A DNA stretch of 37,405 nucleotides from Acidobacteriota bacterium. GTDB taxonomy: Bacteria; Acidobacteriota; Holophagae; Thermotomaculales; Thermotomaculaceae. Positions 15,342 through 22,936 of the stretch are shown one piece after another. Both the position numbers and the translations under genes were made by a program. The notes below the pieces were generated by a model. The model searched no databases, was not told the DNA's origin, and saw nothing but the letters and a program-made list of their open reading frames with translations. The stretch is taken from NCBI GenBank assembly GCA_013152385.1, contig JAADGL010000060.1, forward strand, positions 1 to 37,405. The letters are read 5' to 3'. Within the stretch, counting starts at the first letter, position 1. Every line of letters starts with the position of its first letter.

Positions 15342-16055
15342 TCAGAAATTAAATGACCAGGTTGCGGAAAAAATCAGGTTGCTGTCGTCGTGGATAAATG
15401 CCGGTGTGTGGATATCAGAATTGAGCAGATTGCTCTCTGTGAGGCTCAAATCCAGTTCTCCGACTTTCAACTTAACAGGGTAATTCAGTGAAACGGAAAA
15501 ATCGGTCAGGGTACTGCCGGTATGTTTGTCCGAAACAAAATATCCTCTGACATAATTTCCGGAACCGCAGCCCATTGACATCTCAACGGAAAGCCTGTTT
15601 TCAAATTGATGCGACAACCCGAATTTCAGATAAAGCCCGTTTACCTGGTCAAAGTCATAGTACGCGGTAACAGACGGAGAGAACATCCGGTTTGACATGG
15701 AAATACCCAGAAAAACCTCTTTTGTCGAGTTTGAATCCGTATGGGGAAATGTGTAGGAAATAATACCGGCGGACCAGCCGGTTCCGGCTGTCTGCCAGTC
15801 ATAGGAAAATGTGTAATCCACTTCATCCAGGTTAAATTGGTTGTTATACCGGTTACCCAGATCCATGTTTCCCCATACGTCGAAGGTAAATCCATTTCCC
15901 GAAATTGACACATCCGGCTGAAATACCGCCTGGTCATTCACAAGGATTCCCCGCCACACATAACGGCTGGCAACCGTTGAACCGGTGCTGATATTTACGG
16001 CAACAGCCGGAAATACTGTAACCAGCAGAATTGCAATCAGAATTAATTTCTTCAT
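15342..16055 (-). CDS. TorF-like putative outer-membrane porin (Gcw_chp/TIGR02001-like)
   Basis: This is a probable outer-membrane beta-barrel of unknown substrate. The 237-residue product starts with a signal peptide (MKKLILIAILLVTVFPAVAV, cleavage around residue 19-20). Alternating aromatic/hydrophobic strands follow and the protein ends in phenylalanine (WSFNF), the usual outer-membrane sorting signal. Near the mature N-terminus it has SRYVWRGI, which resembles the SDYVFRGV-type motif of the family NCBI names TorF-like putative porins. It lies 31 bases downstream of amt on the same strand and is probably its operon partner, which suggests a role in uptake of small nitrogen compounds; that is inference. 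A shared terminator follows. Confidence 0.65.
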   Translation of the reverse strand: MKKLILIAILLVTVFPAVAVNISTGSTVASRYVWRGILVNDQAVFQPDVSISGNGFTFDVWGNMDLGNRYNNQFNLDEVDYTFSYDWQTAGTGWSAGIISYTFPHTDSNSTKEVFLGISMSNRMFSPSVTAYYDFDQVNGLYLKFGLSHQFENRLSVEMSMGCGSGNYVRGYFVSDKHTGSTLTDFSVSLNYPVKLKVGELDLSLTESNLLNSDIHTPAFIHDDSNLIFSATWSFNF

Positions 16056-16086: not shown

Positions 16087-17298
16087 TTAAAGATAAGCAT
16101 TTTCTCCATGGAGAGACTCGTCCATGCCCAACTCTTCTTCCGTTTCGCTGACCCGGACCGGCGTAATTTTATTGATAACAGCCAGCATGAAATAAGAAAA
16201 AACAAAAGCATAGGCGGAAGCGGCGAGAACCGCCACCGTTTCTTTCAGAAAAAATGCGGAACCGCCGGAGAGAAGCCCGTTTGCGCCACCGGCATTTACA
16301 GCGGTGGTGGCGAAAATACCCAGCATAATAACGCCGATGGTGCCGCCGACACCATGAACGCCCCATACGTCCAGTGCGTCATCCCATCCAAGATGGTTTT
16401 TCATGGACACAGCAAGATAACAGACAATACCGGCAATGATTCCAATGATGGCGGCGGAACCGGTACTGACATATCCGGCTGCCGGAGTAATGGTGGCCAG
16501 TCCGGCAACCGCACCGGTTAACAGGCCGACAAATTTCGGTTTTTTGCCTCGGGACCATTCAATAATCAGCCAGGTAACGGCGGCAAAGGAGGCGGCAACA
16601 TCCGTGTTCAGAAAAGCCAGTGCCGTGATGGCATTCACCTGCAGTTCGCTTCCGGCGTTAAATCCGTACCAGCCAAACCAGAGAAGGCCGGTTCCAAGGG
16701 CAACCAGCGGAATACTGTGGGGCCCCCGTTCCTTGACCTTACGCCTGCCCACAAAGAAAACAGATGCCAGCGCCGCCATTCCGGCGATTGCGTGGACAAC
16801 AATGCCCCCTGCGAAGTCCAGTACACCCCATTTCTGGAGAATACCGCCGCCCCACACCATATGGCAGATGGGGAAGTACACAAAAAGCAGCCAGGATACC
16901 AGAAAAATCAGATAAGCCGAGAAGCGGACCCGGTTGGTAAATGCTCCGGTAATCAGCGCCGGGGTGATGATGGCAAACATCATCTGATACGCAATAAAAA
17001 CCAGAAGCGGAATGTTGTTGGTTGCTGAAAAAACGGTGGTGGGATCCACACCGTGGAGAAACGCCATATTCAGGTTGCCGATGATACCTCCCACGTCTCC
17101 GCTGAAACAGAGAGAGTATCCCACCACATACCACAATACCGTGGTGACGCCCATGGAAACAAAGCTCTGCATCATGATGGTCAGTACGTTCTTGCGTCCG
17201 ACAAGGCCTCCGTAGAAAAAGGCAAGGCCAGGGGTCATCAGCATGACGAGACTGGTTGCCAGCAGCATAAATCCTGTGTTTCCCGGATTAAAATGCAT
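16087..17298 (-). CDS. amt: Ammonium transporter (Amt/MEP/Rh family)
   Basis: Amt moves ammonium across the inner membrane. The 403-residue product has eleven predicted membrane segments. The twin pore histidines are present: H169 (GGIVVHAIAG) and H315 (WGVHGVGGT), matching E. coli AmtB H168 and H318. The cytoplasmic C-terminus (TEEELGMDESLHGENAYL) resembles the AmtB tail that contacts GlnK. The start is unusual: in this reading the protein begins directly at the first membrane helix (MHFNPGNTGFMLLATSLVML), with no N-terminal signal peptide as in proteobacterial AmtB. An AGGAGGG site precedes the ATG. No glnK gene is adjacent; the downstream partner is a porin-like gene. It is divergent from a two-component system. 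Confidence 0.96.
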   Translation of the reverse strand: MHFNPGNTGFMLLATSLVMLMTPGLAFFYGGLVGRKNVLTIMMQSFVSMGVTTVLWYVVGYSLCFSGDVGGIIGNLNMAFLHGVDPTTVFSATNNIPLLVFIAYQMMFAIITPALITGAFTNRVRFSAYLIFLVSWLLFVYFPICHMVWGGGILQKWGVLDFAGGIVVHAIAGMAALASVFFVGRRKVKERGPHSIPLVALGTGLLWFGWYGFNAGSELQVNAITALAFLNTDVAASFAAVTWLIIEWSRGKKPKFVGLLTGAVAGLATITPAAGYVSTGSAAIIGIIAGIVCYLAVSMKNHLGWDDALDVWGVHGVGGTIGVIMLGIFATTAVNAGGANGLLSGGSAFFLKETVAVLAASAYAFVFSYFMLAVINKITPVRVSETEEELGMDESLHGENAYL

Positions 17299-17390
17299 AT
17301 GTCCCTCCTAAAAAAATAATCGGAAATTCTCTGCCAATTTAATTATTAACAGATAAAATTGGTCATCTCTTTGTATTTTGATTGTTTTTT

Positions 17391-17437
17391 TGTGAGCAAA
17401 ACCGTATTTTATCCGTTTTGCTCACAAAACGCTCACA
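17391..17437. promoter_or_regulatory. Operator-like repeats between amt and the response-regulator gene
   Basis: TGTGAGCAAAAC (17391-17402) and GTTTTGCTCACA (17415-17426) form a perfect 12-bp inverted repeat around a 12-base spacer. The right arm is also the first of two direct repeats, GCTCACA (17420-17426) and GCTCACA (17431-17437), separated by AAAC, so an 11-bp period. Two 7-mers with a 4-bp AT-rich spacer is the layout of sites bound by OmpR/PhoB-family regulators, and the next gene encodes one. A weak -10 (TATTAA/TTAAAT, 17445-17452) follows. Confidence 0.5.
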
Positions 17438-17502
17438 AATATGGTATTAAATGAAGAGAACATTGGTTCCGGTTTTCTAAAACAGGCGGAGGATGGCAAT
17501 AC

Positions 17503-18207
17503 GTGAAACATGAAAATCCCCGGATTCTTTTTATTGAAGATGAAGAGAATCTGCTGAACAGCATGTCTTACATTCTGGAACGGGAAGGTTTTCTGGTGAA
17601 AAAAGCGCTTTCCGGAGAAGACGGGCTTTTGTTTTTTCGGGATTTTCGTCCCGGCCTTGTTCTCCTTGATTTAAATTTGCCGGGAATAGATGGATTTGAA
17701 GTGGCGGAACGGCTGGTCGAATCTTATCCGGAAAAATGCCCGGCCATTATTATGCTCACCGGAAGGGCAGACGAAGATGATATTGTAGCCGGCCTGGAGC
17801 GGTTTGCCGATGATTATATTGTTAAACCGGTGCAGCCCAGGGTCCTGATTGCAAGGATTCAATCGGTTCTCCGCAGGTCTGCCGCTGAATCCCATGCTGA
17901 TGCTCCGGATTCTTCTCCTATCCGGATGAACCGGGAATCCTTTGTTGTAAAAGTGGAGGGACGGCCCCTTCGGTTGACAAAATCGGAATTCAGAATACTG
18001 GATCTGTTGATGTGTTCCCGGGAAAAAGTTTTGTCAAGAGAGCAGATAATCAATGCTGTTAAAGGGTTCGATTGTTATGTAACCGAACGAATTGTTGATT
18101 TCCAGATTTGCCGGATTCGAAAAAAACTGGGAAAATACGCAGACAGGATTGAAACGGTTCGGGGAGTCGGATATAAGTTTACCCTCGGCCCGAATGACAC
18201 ATGCTGA
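17503..18207 (+). CDS. OmpR/PhoB-family two-component response regulator
   Basis: The 234-residue product is a DNA-binding response regulator. The receiver domain (residues 6-125) has the acidic pair in IEDEE, phospho-acceptor D56 (LLDLNLPG), the switch Thr in MLTGRAD, and the conserved Lys in YIVKPVQ. The C-terminal winged helix (about 140-230) shows LRLTKSEFRILDLLM and ERIVDFQICRIRKKLG with GVGYKF, diagnostic of the OmpR/PhoB class. The start is GTG at 17503; a GGAGG site lies at 17488-17492 and the in-between ATG at 17493 is out of frame. It overlaps the hybrid kinase gene by 7 bases, so the two are a pair. A repeated site upstream could be its own operator. Confidence 0.92.
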   Translation: MKHENPRILFIEDEENLLNSMSYILEREGFLVKKALSGEDGLLFFRDFRPGLVLLDLNLPGIDGFEVAERLVESYPEKCPAIIMLTGRADEDDIVAGLERFADDYIVKPVQPRVLIARIQSVLRRSAAESHADAPDSSPIRMNRESFVVKVEGRPLRLTKSEFRILDLLMCSREKVLSREQIINAVKGFDCYVTERIVDFQICRIRKKLGKYADRIETVRGVGYKFTLGPNDTC

Positions 18208-20594
18208 GAGACGTTCCGTTTAAGGCACTGTTGACTATCGGTTTCCTTGTGGCAGGATTGCTGCCGTTGATGATTTTTGCTTTAATGAGCTATTCCGCAT
18301 CCAGAAACACTCTGAAACAACAGGCTTTTCGCCAGATTGAGTCTATTCGGAACATCAAAATTCATCAACTGGAAAGCTTTTTTAATGAAACAAAATCACA
18401 GGTTCGGGTTTTTTCGGAAAGTCCGGTTGTTCGACAGTTTTTCAGAGATATGGTGAACTGGCACGGAGAATTTCAACTGAAAAACAAACATCGTTTTCTG
18501 GCCGGCAGCGGAAACGGAAAATTTAAATCCGATTCCCGATATCGGAAAATCCACGACAAATATTTTTGTTATTTCCGGAACATTGTAAAACAGCTTCATT
18601 TTTATGATTTGTTTCTCATTGAACCCGGTGACGGGTTGGTTGTGTTTACCGTTGTCAAGGAGCCGGATTTCGGTGTGGTTCTTTCCGGCACACAATCGCC
18701 GCTGGAAAAAGCGTGGAAGCAGGCCAAAACCGCCAAAACCGTAATATTGACTGATACACGTCTCTATCAGCCGTCCCGGAATGTACCGGCACAGTTTGCC
18801 ATCGTTAAAGTGAAGGACGGCGGAAAAACCGTCGGTTATCTTGCGGTTCAGATTTCCATTGCAGCCATTGACCGGATAATGGGAGAACGTTCCGGGATGG
18901 GAAATACGGGGGAAACCTACCTTGTGGGAGAAGACCACCTCATGCGGTCCGATTCTTTTACGGATCCGAAGGGGCATTCGGTTTTGGCCTCATTATCCGG
19001 TACCCTGAAAAAAAACGGAGTGGAAACAGGAGCGGTAACCCGGGCGCTTCAAGGGAAAACCGGCTGTGGAACTTTTGTGGATTACAACGGAAATCGGGTG
19101 CTGTCTGCATACGGCCCGGTTCAATTTGGAAATTTTTCCTGGGCGCTGATGGCGGAAATCAATGAGCGGGAAATCAACCGGCAGATTGAAACGGCGCTGA
19201 ATAAGCAGATTTTGTTCATTATGCTGCTGTCCATTGCACTTCTTTTATCTCTGGTTTCTATGATTTCAATCTTTTTCAGCCGCGGTATTTCCCGGGTTAC
19301 CTCGGAAACCGAAAATCTGGTGGATGAAATTCTCAAAGGAAGGCTTCACGCCAGAACGGATCCGGATAAAGTGGGCAGGGATTTTCGTGGGCTTGTTTCC
19401 AAAACCAACCGTCTTATTGATGCTTTTGTCAATCAAATTCATGAACGCCGGAAGATGGAAGAGCTCATGGAATACAATCAGCGGATGGAATCCATCGGAA
19501 CACTGGCGGGGGGAATTGCACATGATTTTAATAATATTCTTACTTATATGTTCAGTTACTCTGACATTATCATCGGAGAATTAAAACCGGGCACAAAAGA
19601 GTATGAGAGCATGCTGGAAATACAGAAGGCAATTCACCGGGCGGCGGACCTTGTGAGCCAGATTATGACATTCAGCCGTCAGGTGCGTCAGGAAAAGAAG
19701 CCTGTTCGTATTTCATTGATTGTTAAAGAAATTGTGAAACTTCTCAAATCCACTCTCCCCAAGAGCATTGTTGTTCAGAAAGAAATTGAAGAAGAGGATT
19801 TGTATGTTCCGGCGGAACCCTCCCAGCTCTATCAGATTGCCATGAACCTCTGTACCAATGCCTTTCATGCAATGCAGGAAAAAGGGGGAACTTTAATTGT
19901 GCGGCTGGCGAAAAGTAAAGTGGTATCACCGGAAAAACAGCCGACTTGTGTACTGACCATTGAGGATACCGGCTGCGGGATGGACAAAGAGACCCAAAAA
20001 CACATTTTTGAGCCCTATTTTACCACGAAAGGGCCGGGACAGGGTTCCGGAATGGGGCTGGCGGTTGTTCATGGCATCTGTAAAGCGCTGGGGGCTGCCA
20101 TCAATGTCCAATCCACACCAGGAGCGGGAACTTGTATTGAAGTTGTATTACCATGTGTGGAAAATCCGGGCCGATTTGAAAAAGCCGGTGTAAAAGTAGC
20201 CGGTTATCGGGGGAGCGGCCGAATTCTTTTTGTGGACGATGAAGAGAATATCGGAAAATCCACCGGGAAGCTTCTCCGGTCATGGGGGTATTCGGTTGTT
20301 GTTACCACAGACGGTTTCAAAGCGGACAGCCTTCTGAAATCAAAAAAAATGAAGGATTATCTTCTGATTACAGATCTGAATATGCCGGGAATGACAGGGT
20401 TTCAATTGATTCGGAATATGCGCCTGCGGGGGGATATGCGTCCGGTGATTCTTCTCACCGGTTACAGTGAAATGCTGAATCGGGAAAGTTCGGACATTCT
20501 GTCCGGTACCACAATCCTGTTTAAGCCCTTTACCCCGGAAAAACTGGCCCGCGTCATCCGGGAGGTACTGGATTCAAAGGAGAATAAAAAATAA
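18201..20594 (+). CDS. Hybrid sensor histidine kinase with extracytoplasmic sensor and C-terminal receiver
   Basis: This membrane kinase presumably signals to the preceding response regulator. Its 797 residues run in order: TM1 (about 9-31); a 300-residue extracytoplasmic region resembling dCache sensor domains (GYLAVQISIAAIDRIM, GNTGETYLVGEDHLMRSDSF); TM2 (about 336-360); a HAMP-like linker; a dimerisation domain with phospho-acceptor H441 in GGIAHDFNNILT; an ATPase domain with N-box NLCTNAFHAM, G1 DTGCGMD and G2 GSGMGLAVVHGI; and a C-terminal receiver (about 674-795) with acceptor D725 (ITDLNMPG). The ligand is unknown. A hybrid kinase whose extra receiver lacks an Hpt domain, next to a separate response regulator, suggests the attached receiver modulates the kinase. 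Confidence 0.9.
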   Translation: MLRDVPFKALLTIGFLVAGLLPLMIFALMSYSASRNTLKQQAFRQIESIRNIKIHQLESFFNETKSQVRVFSESPVVRQFFRDMVNWHGEFQLKNKHRFLAGSGNGKFKSDSRYRKIHDKYFCYFRNIVKQLHFYDLFLIEPGDGLVVFTVVKEPDFGVVLSGTQSPLEKAWKQAKTAKTVILTDTRLYQPSRNVPAQFAIVKVKDGGKTVGYLAVQISIAAIDRIMGERSGMGNTGETYLVGEDHLMRSDSFTDPKGHSVLASLSGTLKKNGVETGAVTRALQGKTGCGTFVDYNGNRVLSAYGPVQFGNFSWALMAEINEREINRQIETALNKQILFIMLLSIALLLSLVSMISIFFSRGISRVTSETENLVDEILKGRLHARTDPDKVGRDFRGLVSKTNRLIDAFVNQIHERRKMEELMEYNQRMESIGTLAGGIAHDFNNILTYMFSYSDIIIGELKPGTKEYESMLEIQKAIHRAADLVSQIMTFSRQVRQEKKPVRISLIVKEIVKLLKSTLPKSIVVQKEIEEEDLYVPAEPSQLYQIAMNLCTNAFHAMQEKGGTLIVRLAKSKVVSPEKQPTCVLTIEDTGCGMDKETQKHIFEPYFTTKGPGQGSGMGLAVVHGICKALGAAINVQSTPGAGTCIEVVLPCVENPGRFEKAGVKVAGYRGSGRILFVDDEENIGKSTGKLLRSWGYSVVVTTDGFKADSLLKSKKMKDYLLITDLNMPGMTGFQLIRNMRLRGDMRPVILLTGYSEMLNRESSDILSGTTILFKPFTPEKLARVIREVLDSKENKK

Positions 20595-20696: not shown

Positions 20697-20795
20697 GGAT
20701 TCACAGAAGATGTTTATGATGGCCCGACCGGCAGCAAAAAAGCTTGTCATTGATGTGGGCCGCTATCGGTTAATTTATTGAAAAAGGAGTTGAAT

Positions 20796-21632
20796 ATGTC
20801 TGATCAAATTCCCCCGGTTCCCCAAGTTCCTCAAACACCGCAACCTGATCCTGCCGCCCCCGGTTCCCCGAAGAAAAAGGGGCTTCCCGCACTGGCCTGG
20901 GTGGGGATAGGATGCGGTACGATTGTTTTGCTTGTTATTATCGGACTGGTCGCTTTGGGTGGGTATGCGGTTCACAAAGTCAAGCAGGCGGGTTTTGATC
21001 CCGGGCTGTGGAAAAGGAATCCCACTGCCGCCGCCGCCAAAATTATTACCACCATGAACCCGGATGTGGAAATTGTCAGTACCGACAACAATTCCCAGAC
21101 CATAACCATCCGCAACAGAAAGACCGGCAAGACCGTGACGGTTGATTTGCAGGATGTGAAAAACGGCAAATTCCGTTTCTTTGACGAAAAGGGGCATGAA
21201 AGCACGGTCACCCTCAGCGGAAGTGCCCCCGGCGAGAACGGAAAGAGATCCGGCGGCAGCATGAGCATCAAAACATCGGAAGGGAAAGTGAACATTTCAA
21301 CCGGGACCAAAGCCGATAAGCTGCCTGAATGGGTTCCTCTTTACAGGGATGTTGTGCCGACCAAAGTCATGGTGATGACGGCTGACAGGGGGACCAGCGG
21401 AAGTTATTCTATTGTGGTAAAAGATTCGGTGGATGATACGGTGCAGTTTATGGAGAGCAAACTGAAAGATTCGGGTTTTACCATCAGCAAAAACAGTTAT
21501 TCGGTGAATAACGAAAAATGGGTAAATCTCTCCGCACAAAAAAATGGCAAACTGTCGGTCAACATTATTGTGACCCGTACAAATGAAGGAACCGGCATCA
21601 ATGTCACCTTTTCGGAGAAATTCGGTTCATGA
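20796..21632 (+). CDS. Single-pass membrane protein of unknown function with proline-rich N-terminus
   Basis: I do not recognise a named family with confidence. The 278-residue product has a cytoplasmic Pro/Gln-rich head (SDQIPPVPQVPQTPQPDP), a Lys cluster (KKK, 26-28), one membrane helix (about 31-58), then a soluble extracytoplasmic part. The stretch after the helix (NPTAAAAKIITTMNPDVEIV, then TITIRNRKTGKTVTVDLQDV) resembles a short beta-rich domain seen in hypothetical proteins of several Gram-negative phyla. A second domain covers about residues 180-278 (LPEWVPLYRDVVPTKVMVMT...). The start at 20796 is set by an AGGAG site at 20785-20789; an in-frame extension to 20778 is unsupported. It stands alone and is followed by a strong terminator. 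Confidence 0.8.
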   Translation: MSDQIPPVPQVPQTPQPDPAAPGSPKKKGLPALAWVGIGCGTIVLLVIIGLVALGGYAVHKVKQAGFDPGLWKRNPTAAAAKIITTMNPDVEIVSTDNNSQTITIRNRKTGKTVTVDLQDVKNGKFRFFDEKGHESTVTLSGSAPGENGKRSGGSMSIKTSEGKVNISTGTKADKLPEWVPLYRDVVPTKVMVMTADRGTSGSYSIVVKDSVDDTVQFMESKLKDSGFTISKNSYSVNNEKWVNLSAQKNGKLSVNIIVTRTNEGTGINVTFSEKFGS

Positions 21633-21825: not shown

Positions 21826-22936
21826 ATGATGGATTTTGAAACTGCCGTGGAACTTCACAACAGCCTGAAAGAACGGATACCCACAATTCGGAGTTATCTT
21901 TGACGCGGCCGGGAAACAAAAACAGATTGATGAATTGGAGAAAAAAACCTCTGCCCCTGAGTTCTGGAATGACAACGAATCCGCCCAGAAAGTACTGAAA
22001 GAGATTTCCAGGCTGAAAGCATACATTGAAATGGACAAAAAACTTCAGGAATCCGCCGAGGAAGTGGAAGTTCTGCTGGAGCTTCAGTCGGAAGGAGAGG
22101 ATATGGCTGCGGAACTTTCCGCCCAGATTGAAAAATTATCGGAAATTGTAAACGATGCCGAGCTTCGGATGATTCTCGGGGGGAAACATGACCCCAACAA
22201 TGCCATTTTGACCATTCACTCCGGGTCCGGCGGAACCGAATCCCAGGACTGGGCCCAAATGCTGTACAGAATGTACACCCGTTATATTGAGCGCAAAGGG
22301 TTTAAAATGGAAATCATAGATTTTCAACCCGGAGATGAAGCCGGGATTAAGAGTGTTACCGTGCTGGTGGAAGGAGATTATGCCTACGGATACCTGAAAG
22401 CGGAAACCGGTGTTCACCGGCTGGTCCGTATCAGCCCCTTTGATGCCAACAGCCGCCGCCATACTTCTTTTGCGTCCGTACTTGCGGTTCCGGAAATTGA
22501 TGATGATATTGATATTGAAATCAATGAAAAAGACCTTCGGATTGATACCTACCGTTCCAGTGGTGCCGGCGGCCAGCATGTCAATACCACTGATTCTGCG
22601 GTTCGGATTACCCACATTCCCACCGGAACAGTGGTCTGCTGTCAGAATGAACGCTCTCAGATTAAAAACCGGGACGTGGCAATGAAAGTTCTGAAATCCA
22701 GGCTCTATGAACTGGAATTACTGAAACAGAAAGAACAGCACGAAAAATTGGCCGGGGAAAAGAAGGAGATCTCCTGGGGCAGTCAAATCCGTTCTTATGT
22801 CCTCCACCCCTACCGGATGATCAAAGATCATCGAACCGGTTATGAAACCGGCAATATCGACCCCGTTCTCGATGGAGACCTGGACCCTTTTATCCGGGAA
22901 TACCTGGTGATGAGTGCCACCGGAAAATCAAAATGA
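21826..22936 (+). CDS. prfB: Peptide chain release factor 2, made by programmed +1 frameshift
   Basis: RF2 ends translation at UGA and UAA. The first frame runs from ATG 21826 for 25 codons to an in-frame TGA at 21901-21903. The sequence TAT CTT TGA C at the junction, with GGAG at 21890-21893 just upstream, is the classical RF2 autoregulatory site: slow UGA reading when RF2 is scarce lets the ribosome slip +1 on CTT. The second frame continues from GAC at 21902 to the stop at 22936, giving 369 residues, close to the usual 365. SPF (stop-codon recognition) occurs in RISPFDANSRRHTS and the catalytic GGQ in SGAGGQHVNTTDSAVR. A GGAAGGAG site precedes the ATG. The stop overlaps the next gene as ATGA. 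Confidence 0.97.
21890..21903 (+). promoter_or_regulatory. RF2 +1 programmed frameshift site
   Basis: GGAG (21890-21893, internal Shine-Dalgarno-like), TTAT, slippery CTT (21898-21900), stop TGA (21901-21903) followed by C. It matches the E. coli arrangement AGGGGG TAT CTT TGA C, with a weaker Shine-Dalgarno element. Confidence 0.93.

Follow-up and report, generated by a model that had tools for sequence, protein, structure and literature searches.

The PHO box, the site of PhoB/PhoP-type regulators, consists of two 11-nucleotide units of seven conserved and four less conserved bases (7+4), and its word differs between species, being GTTCACC in Streptomyces coelicolor, as set out in PMC4415409. 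GlnR is termed an atypical response regulator. This OmpR-like protein recognizes sites of the form GTnAC-n6-GTnAC and binds upstream of amtB in Streptomyces, with 36 binding regions in S. venezuelae (PMC3087709). KdpE half-sites read TTTATA-N5-TTTACA (PMC3264566). Given the PHO boxes and GlnR at amtB, an OmpR-type regulator acting at 11-bp repeats beside an ammonium transporter gene is of a known kind. GlnR and PhoP reportedly compete at the S. coelicolor amtB promoter, which would place a PhoP regulator at an amtB promoter, as is proposed for the regulator described here. For this phylum, the titles and abstract openings of the papers searched yielded no KdpDE/amt or OmpR-type/amt pair.

The locus considered here lies in a stretch of 37,405 nucleotides from an Acidobacteriota bacterium, the whole of which was analysed and is called the window. 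An ammonium transporter gene (amt), which reaches to 17298 on the minus strand, is divergent from a response regulator (RR) gene starting at 17503 on the plus strand, the gap between them comprising 204 bp with 33% G+C. The features of this region are as follows.

16087-17298, minus strand: amt, ammonium transporter, 403 aa (PF00909, 380 bits; TIGR00836, 422 bits, cut-off 343)
17388-17402, no strand assigned: left arm of a perfect 15-bp inverted repeat (TTTTGTGAGCAAAAC), from the repeat search
17391-17397, minus strand: third copy of GCTCACA, inverted and facing amt, from the word search
17415-17429, no strand assigned: right arm of the inverted repeat (GTTTTGCTCACAAAA), including the first direct-repeat unit
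17420-17437, plus strand: tandem direct repeat GCTCACA-AAAC-GCTCACA, 11-bp lag, identity extending to GCTCACAAA
17445-17450, plus strand: putative weak -10-like hexamer TATTAA, a tentative assignment
17503-18207, plus strand: OmpR/PhoB-family RR, 234 aa (PF00072 and PF00486), GTG start
18201-20594, plus strand: hybrid histidine kinase, 797 aa, with dCache_1-like sensor, HisKA/HATPase and C-terminal receiver

The two plus-strand copies of GCTCACA (17420-17426 and 17431-17437) are identical at 7/7 positions within the unit and over nine bases in all at a lag of 11, so that the 7+4 geometry of OmpR/PhoB-type sites, which the first-pass annotation had read here, is exact and is that of the PHO box (PMC4415409). 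The tandem repeat thus presents, at 17420-17437, two head-to-tail units of the PHO-box type, and its word is identical to that of S. coelicolor at five of seven positions. It departs from the PHO box in having a third, inverted copy and in its surroundings, as no phosphate-uptake gene was named among the nine window genes scanned with Pfam and NCBIfam. The first plus-strand copy and the minus-strand copy together form the inverted repeat, which proved perfect, as had been claimed, but is 15 bp rather than 12 bp long; its arms are separated by 12 nt, and their GTGAGC/GCTCAC cores lie 22 bp apart. By eye, no second unit was seen 11 bp from the amt-facing copy. A fourth copy of the word (19652-19658, minus strand) is the only other one in the window. 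The hexamer TATTAA, matching TATAAT at four of six positions and unlisted by the promoter scan, begins 25 bp beyond the first base of the direct repeat, and the same scan gave no clear promoter for amt (1 site versus 1.1 expected).

Read on the amt strand, the tandem repeat becomes GTGAG-n6-GTGAG, and the likeness to the GlnR/amtB case extends to an OmpR-like regulator, 11-bp direct repeats and a position upstream of an ammonium transporter gene. The last base of each half-site differs, however, which takes the sequence outside the GlnR box as given there; unlike GlnR, moreover, the window RR keeps the residues D56, T86 and K108 and adjoins a kinase gene, and its putative site occurs once in the genome. 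With the KdpE sites, the window repeat shares the 11-bp direct repetition.

The RR gene is preceded by GGAGG at 17488-17492, and both domains of its product score over the cut-off (Response_reg, 82.9 bits; Trans_reg_C, 81.2 bits), which assigns it to the same domain family as the PhoB/PhoP-type regulators. D56, T86 and K108 are invariant in an alignment of eight relatives, and the predicted receiver thereby keeps the residues of a phosphorylatable site. The best NCBIfam model is that of PhoB, TIGR02154, at 189 bits against a cut-off of 296.2; by this model the RR ranks second in its own genome after C13:22929 (209.5 bits), and no gene there exceeds the cut-off. Identification of the RR as PhoB itself was rejected on this score, so that, of the earlier description of a PhoB-like or PhoB-family regulator, the domain family stands while the PhoB identity does not. 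The kinase gene overlaps the stop of the RR gene and encodes a protein with the H-box AHDFNN, in which dCache_1 (43.4 bits, cut-off 45) and HisKA (20.5 bits, cut-off 26.9) both score below their cut-offs. As a dCache hybrid, it sets the pair apart from PhoB/PhoP systems and from KdpDE alike.

Several neighbouring genes may be mentioned. On the 3' side of amt and on the same strand, a Gcw_chp/TorF-type putative porin (15342-16055; Pfam 25.4 bits, cut-off 24; NCBIfam 39.1, below 47.15) possibly forms one unit with amt; tblastn at E 1e-3 gave no match to it beside amt in the 29 class-mate loci searched (L125-L153). The kinase gene is followed by an open frame of 284 aa (20778-21632) for which neither Pfam nor NCBIfam gave a match at E 0.001, and prfB, for release factor 2 (21826-22936), carries CTTTGAC with an in-frame stop after 25 codons, an ordinary programmed +1 frameshift.

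The word GCTCACA alone is not rare, as the window holds 4 copies against a shuffle mean of 2.37, and 24 of 100 shuffles hold at least as many. Its arrangement is another matter: of 2000 dinucleotide shuffles of the gap between amt and the RR gene, none produced an inverted repeat of 15 bp (the maximum being 12) and three produced a lag-11 run of at least 9, and the inverted repeat is the longest perfect one of the window at gaps of up to about 60. The shuffles speak against chance for the repeat arrangement. The genome (2.57 Mb in 69 contigs) was then searched with each query also read backwards as a control. The 18-base direct repeat with at most 3 mismatches occurs at one place, as does its control; GCTCACAN4GCTCACA is found once perfect, never with one mismatch and four times with two, while up to 3 mismatches it gives 55 sites versus 39 for the control. 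The arm word TTTGTGAGCAAAAC is perfect at the two arms only, with a single 1-mismatch site elsewhere and 22 sites at up to 2 mismatches versus 16 for the control, and as it has no perfect copy outside the gap, a mobile element or dispersed repeat was rejected. A genome search for GCTCACA repeats of 11-bp period had been recommended at the outset, and its outcome, one perfect place, is that expected for a local regulator; a site that occurs once suits such a regulator and would not suit a global regulator or a family of repeats.

This singularity also bears on the possibility that another regulator uses the site. A nitrogen regulator, for example, might read the inverted repeat, long perfect repeats of this type being a usual mark of symmetric dimers. 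Or it might read, on the amt strand, GTGAG-n6-GTGAG, which is one base per half-site from the GlnR form GTnAC-n6-GTnAC (PMC3087709). Against such a regulator, which we regard as unlikely, there is no second site of this kind in the genome, as a global nitrogen regulator would be expected to have; the distances between the arms and between the cores are wide for one symmetric dimer, and the adjacent RR is the obvious candidate.

The inverted repeat might instead act in RNA, as a hairpin in a leader transcript serving attenuation or stability. The stretch 17380-17445 does fold strongly (-20.3 kcal/mol versus a shuffle mean of -8.65; z -4.68; 0/200 shuffles as good), but any DNA inverted repeat yields such a fold, which therefore does not discriminate. 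No T-run follows the inverted repeat on either strand, the scan of 17290-17540 gave no terminator-like site, and Rfam matched nothing at the repeats, its matches in the window being two tRNAs elsewhere. A terminator or a structured RNA family was rejected on these grounds, and since the third copy in tandem would be left unexplained as well, a leader hairpin seems improbable.

A search for amt relatives at E 1e-30 or better was positive in 42 of the 61 genomes covered, including the window's own, but in none of the 8 that belong to the same genus or family. The nearest amt relatives in the phylum sample are found outside the class (77-78%), versus 67-71% for class-mates; the distribution would fit loss in the relatives or transfer. 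Among the 396 genomes of the phylum sample searched with the RR, the best relative outside the window belongs to G193 (about 47-48%), a genome of another class, where amt (77%) is again divergent from and adjoining the RR gene. Against residues 1-656 of the window kinase, the G193 kinase shows 36% identity; its dCache match (39.5 bits) is below the cut-off, and no receiver domain was found in it. When the G193 RR was searched in 142 genomes of its class, five, G193 included, gave matches at E 1e-60 or better, and in two of these, G193 and G473, amt lies beside the RR gene. The G473 set comprises an RR 50% identical over 202 residues, an amt in two pieces (75 and 68%) and a kinase at 35%. No amt was seen near the RR relatives of the other three genomes (G505, G466 and G486) in the stretch examined, which for G486 starts less than 300 bp upstream, or in the stretches around L032 and L033, the best RR relatives among named records (56 and 53%). 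These RR relatives with no amt nearby imply that such RRs also work elsewhere.

The putative operator words of these relatives are not those of the window. GCTCACA is absent from both G193 and G473, and an amt-facing copy together with a tandem pair was seen in the window genome only. The 128-bp gap of G193, on the other hand, contains four GTGAG/CTCAC words, a number reached by none of 3000 shuffles (mean 0.11); the three such words of the window gap were likewise reached by 0/3000, but as the word was taken from the window, this count is not independent, whereas that of G193 is. The G473 gap has no GTGAG/CTCAC word, and no excess was found upstream of the RR relatives G505, G466, G486, L032 and L033 (0, 0, 0, 0 and 1). 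What G473 has instead is an 11-bp repeat with a different word, TGTTTGG-GCCG-TTTTTGG, weaker than that of the window and with TATAAT 25 bp from its start. The first-pass annotation had named the absence of the repeats from relatives keeping the gene pair as evidence against its proposal, and this is in part what was observed: GCTCACA is missing from both genomes, but the core word is enriched in one and a different 11-bp repeat stands in the other. A chance arrangement, or a remnant with no function, could appeal to the unconserved word and to the commonness of the single word in the window, yet the shuffles of the inverted repeat and the tandem run and the G193 enrichment make it very improbable.

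The G473 repeat by itself is weak evidence, because repeats matching at 6 of 7 positions are common upstream of RR genes: they occur at lag 11 in 19 of 64 RR upstream regions, the lags from 8 to 22 giving 9 to 29. Perfect repeats (7 of 7) occur at lag 11 in two of the 64, one being the window, and at other lags in 0 to 9. Since lag 11 cannot be told apart from other lags at 6 of 7, the idea that a lag-11 repeat generally marks such RR genes was rejected. The spacing of 25, noticed after the fact, was examined in eight regions by requiring a 6-of-7 repeat with a 4-of-6 hexamer; two of them (the window and G473) qualify at it, but two of the eight qualify at each of the spacings 21, 23, 24, 26 and 29 as well, and a special status for 25 was rejected as these do equally well. 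Single-base shuffles reach two regions at spacing 25 in 10 of 2000 trials, and in 18 of 500 when the lag (10-12) and the spacing (21-32) are left free; at spacings from 24 to 27, a 6-of-7 repeat paired with such a hexamer is lacking in G193. The likeness between the window and G473 may hint at a promoter plan held in common, with the words changed. In the alignment of eight RRs, the window protein has R204 where the other seven have Gly, at what we take to be the position of PhoB Arg201. In the PhoB-DNA structure, PhoB Arg201 bonds a guanine in both half-sites (PMC3973317). The window is also the one holding the PHO-like word, and the exchange of Arg and Gly is a possible reason for the changed operator words.

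Taken together, we assign a probability of about 0.5 to the reading that the adjacent two-component system has its operator in these repeats, which probably also touches amt. It draws on the exact 7+4 repeats, which are non-random and single in the genome, next to a regulator with OmpR/PhoB domains; on the likeness to the PHO box and its S. coelicolor word; on the divergent set kept in G193 and G473, the core-word enrichment in the former and the repeat before TATAAT in the latter; and on R204 at the presumed PhoB Arg201 position and the GlnR/amtB precedent. It is weakened by the absence of GCTCACA from G193 and G473 and of any GTGAG/CTCAC from the latter, by the commonness of 6-of-7 repeats, by the G193 kinase in which no receiver was found, by the amt-facing copy being a single unit, by the lack of a clear amt promoter and by the RR relatives with no amt nearby. 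As a dimer, the phosphorylated RR would bind the two units of GCTCACA-N4-GCTCACA in head-to-tail fashion, immediately before its own weak promoter, and would activate, rather than repress, the RR-kinase genes; the inverted third copy would place another RR unit facing amt, so that one regulator could serve both divergent promoters, and the kinase would read a periplasmic ligand through its dCache domain. Control of the RR by itself through the repeats appears probable, and more likely than control of amt; joint control of amt is the least certain part, for which we would give slightly less than even odds. The original proposal of one regulator at the repeats for itself and the divergent amt is in part supported, namely by the RR domain pair, the PHO-box geometry, the single site and the recurrence of the set in two genomes, but GCTCACA is not kept in these.

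The RR could also bind the tandem repeat and control its own operon only, amt being a passive neighbour on which the inverted copy has no effect. The tandem pair does lie on the RR side, the amt-facing copy being one unit, and amt is missing from the stretches of the RR relatives L032, L033, L255, L256 and L257 (the last starting less than 300 bp upstream). The inverted identity, however, extends over 15 bp and so exceeds the length of a half-site, and amt is found in the same divergent position in G193 and G473; we consider such self-control alone rather unlikely.

Among class-mates, amt often has a different two-component neighbour. The stretches upstream of 45 amt genes were examined, with G039, G060 and most lower-identity second copies left out, and in 19 of the 24 closest class-mate stretches (amt 67-71%) a KdpD-like kinase gene is divergent from amt and accompanied by a KdpE-like RR (L205, L207-L209, L211-L216, L218 and L220-L227). 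The gap carries ATAAAAA-N4-(G/A)TAAAAA at lag 11 in 16 of these 19 loci, all with kinases at least 69% identical to the query, itself one of the 16. In the other three (kinase 47-48%) the main pattern gives way to a variant in which TTTA words recur at lag 11, detected by pattern in L225 and L227 and by eye in L143, which is the same locus as L222; each of the 19 gaps thus has an AT-rich direct repeat of 11 bp in one form or the other. The main pattern was found in none of the 26 stretches that have no such kinase, and the variant in none of the 15 of these that were tested. In sequence these repeats resemble the KdpE half-sites (PMC3264566), and in position they separate amt from a divergent OmpR-type two-component system, but the window has another word and another kinase, and it is in the class-mates that the kinase gene comes first. 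GCTCAC/GTGAGC upstream of amt was confined to scattered words in 4 of the 29 class-mate loci L125-L153 (L126, L127, L141 and L149, the last with two words).

Domain scans of the 19 loci covered four kinases and four RRs. DUF4118 and GAF were found in three of the four KdpD-like kinases and a PF02702 match in none, their start being presumably Usp-like, and at one locus the best NCBIfam models were KdpE and KdpD, both below cut-off. By tblastn, the KdpE-like RRs share 29-35% identity with the window RR, and a class-mate KdpD-like kinase used as query gave only weak matches in the window's genome (best 81 bits, residues 437-654). In G127 (L242, 303-2344), a LuxR-type RR and a HisKA_3 kinase lie upstream of amt in the same direction, and a further protein beyond them resembles the KdpD N-terminus by eye; judged by its predicted domains, this is a third kind of two-component neighbour for amt.

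As an operator, the window repeats would be an ordinary kind of element, but if that reading is right, ammonium uptake would have a switch of its own that senses a ligand. Together with G193 and G473, the window would then form a small natural series in which the operator word and a recognition-helix residue (Arg versus Gly) may have co-changed. It is tentatively suggested that, in this phylum, amt has repeatedly come under its own divergent OmpR-type system, unrelated systems being swapped in at the same spot and each bringing its own 11-bp tandem operator into the shared gap; many class-mates would have received a KdpDE-like system, and the window, G193 and G473 one of PhoB type with a dCache kinase. 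The KdpE-like repeats of the class-mates allow a direct test of whether potassium-type sensing is linked to ammonium uptake, and if such swapping has taken place, ammonium uptake would answer to potassium-type or periplasmic-ligand signals, not to a general nitrogen regulator.
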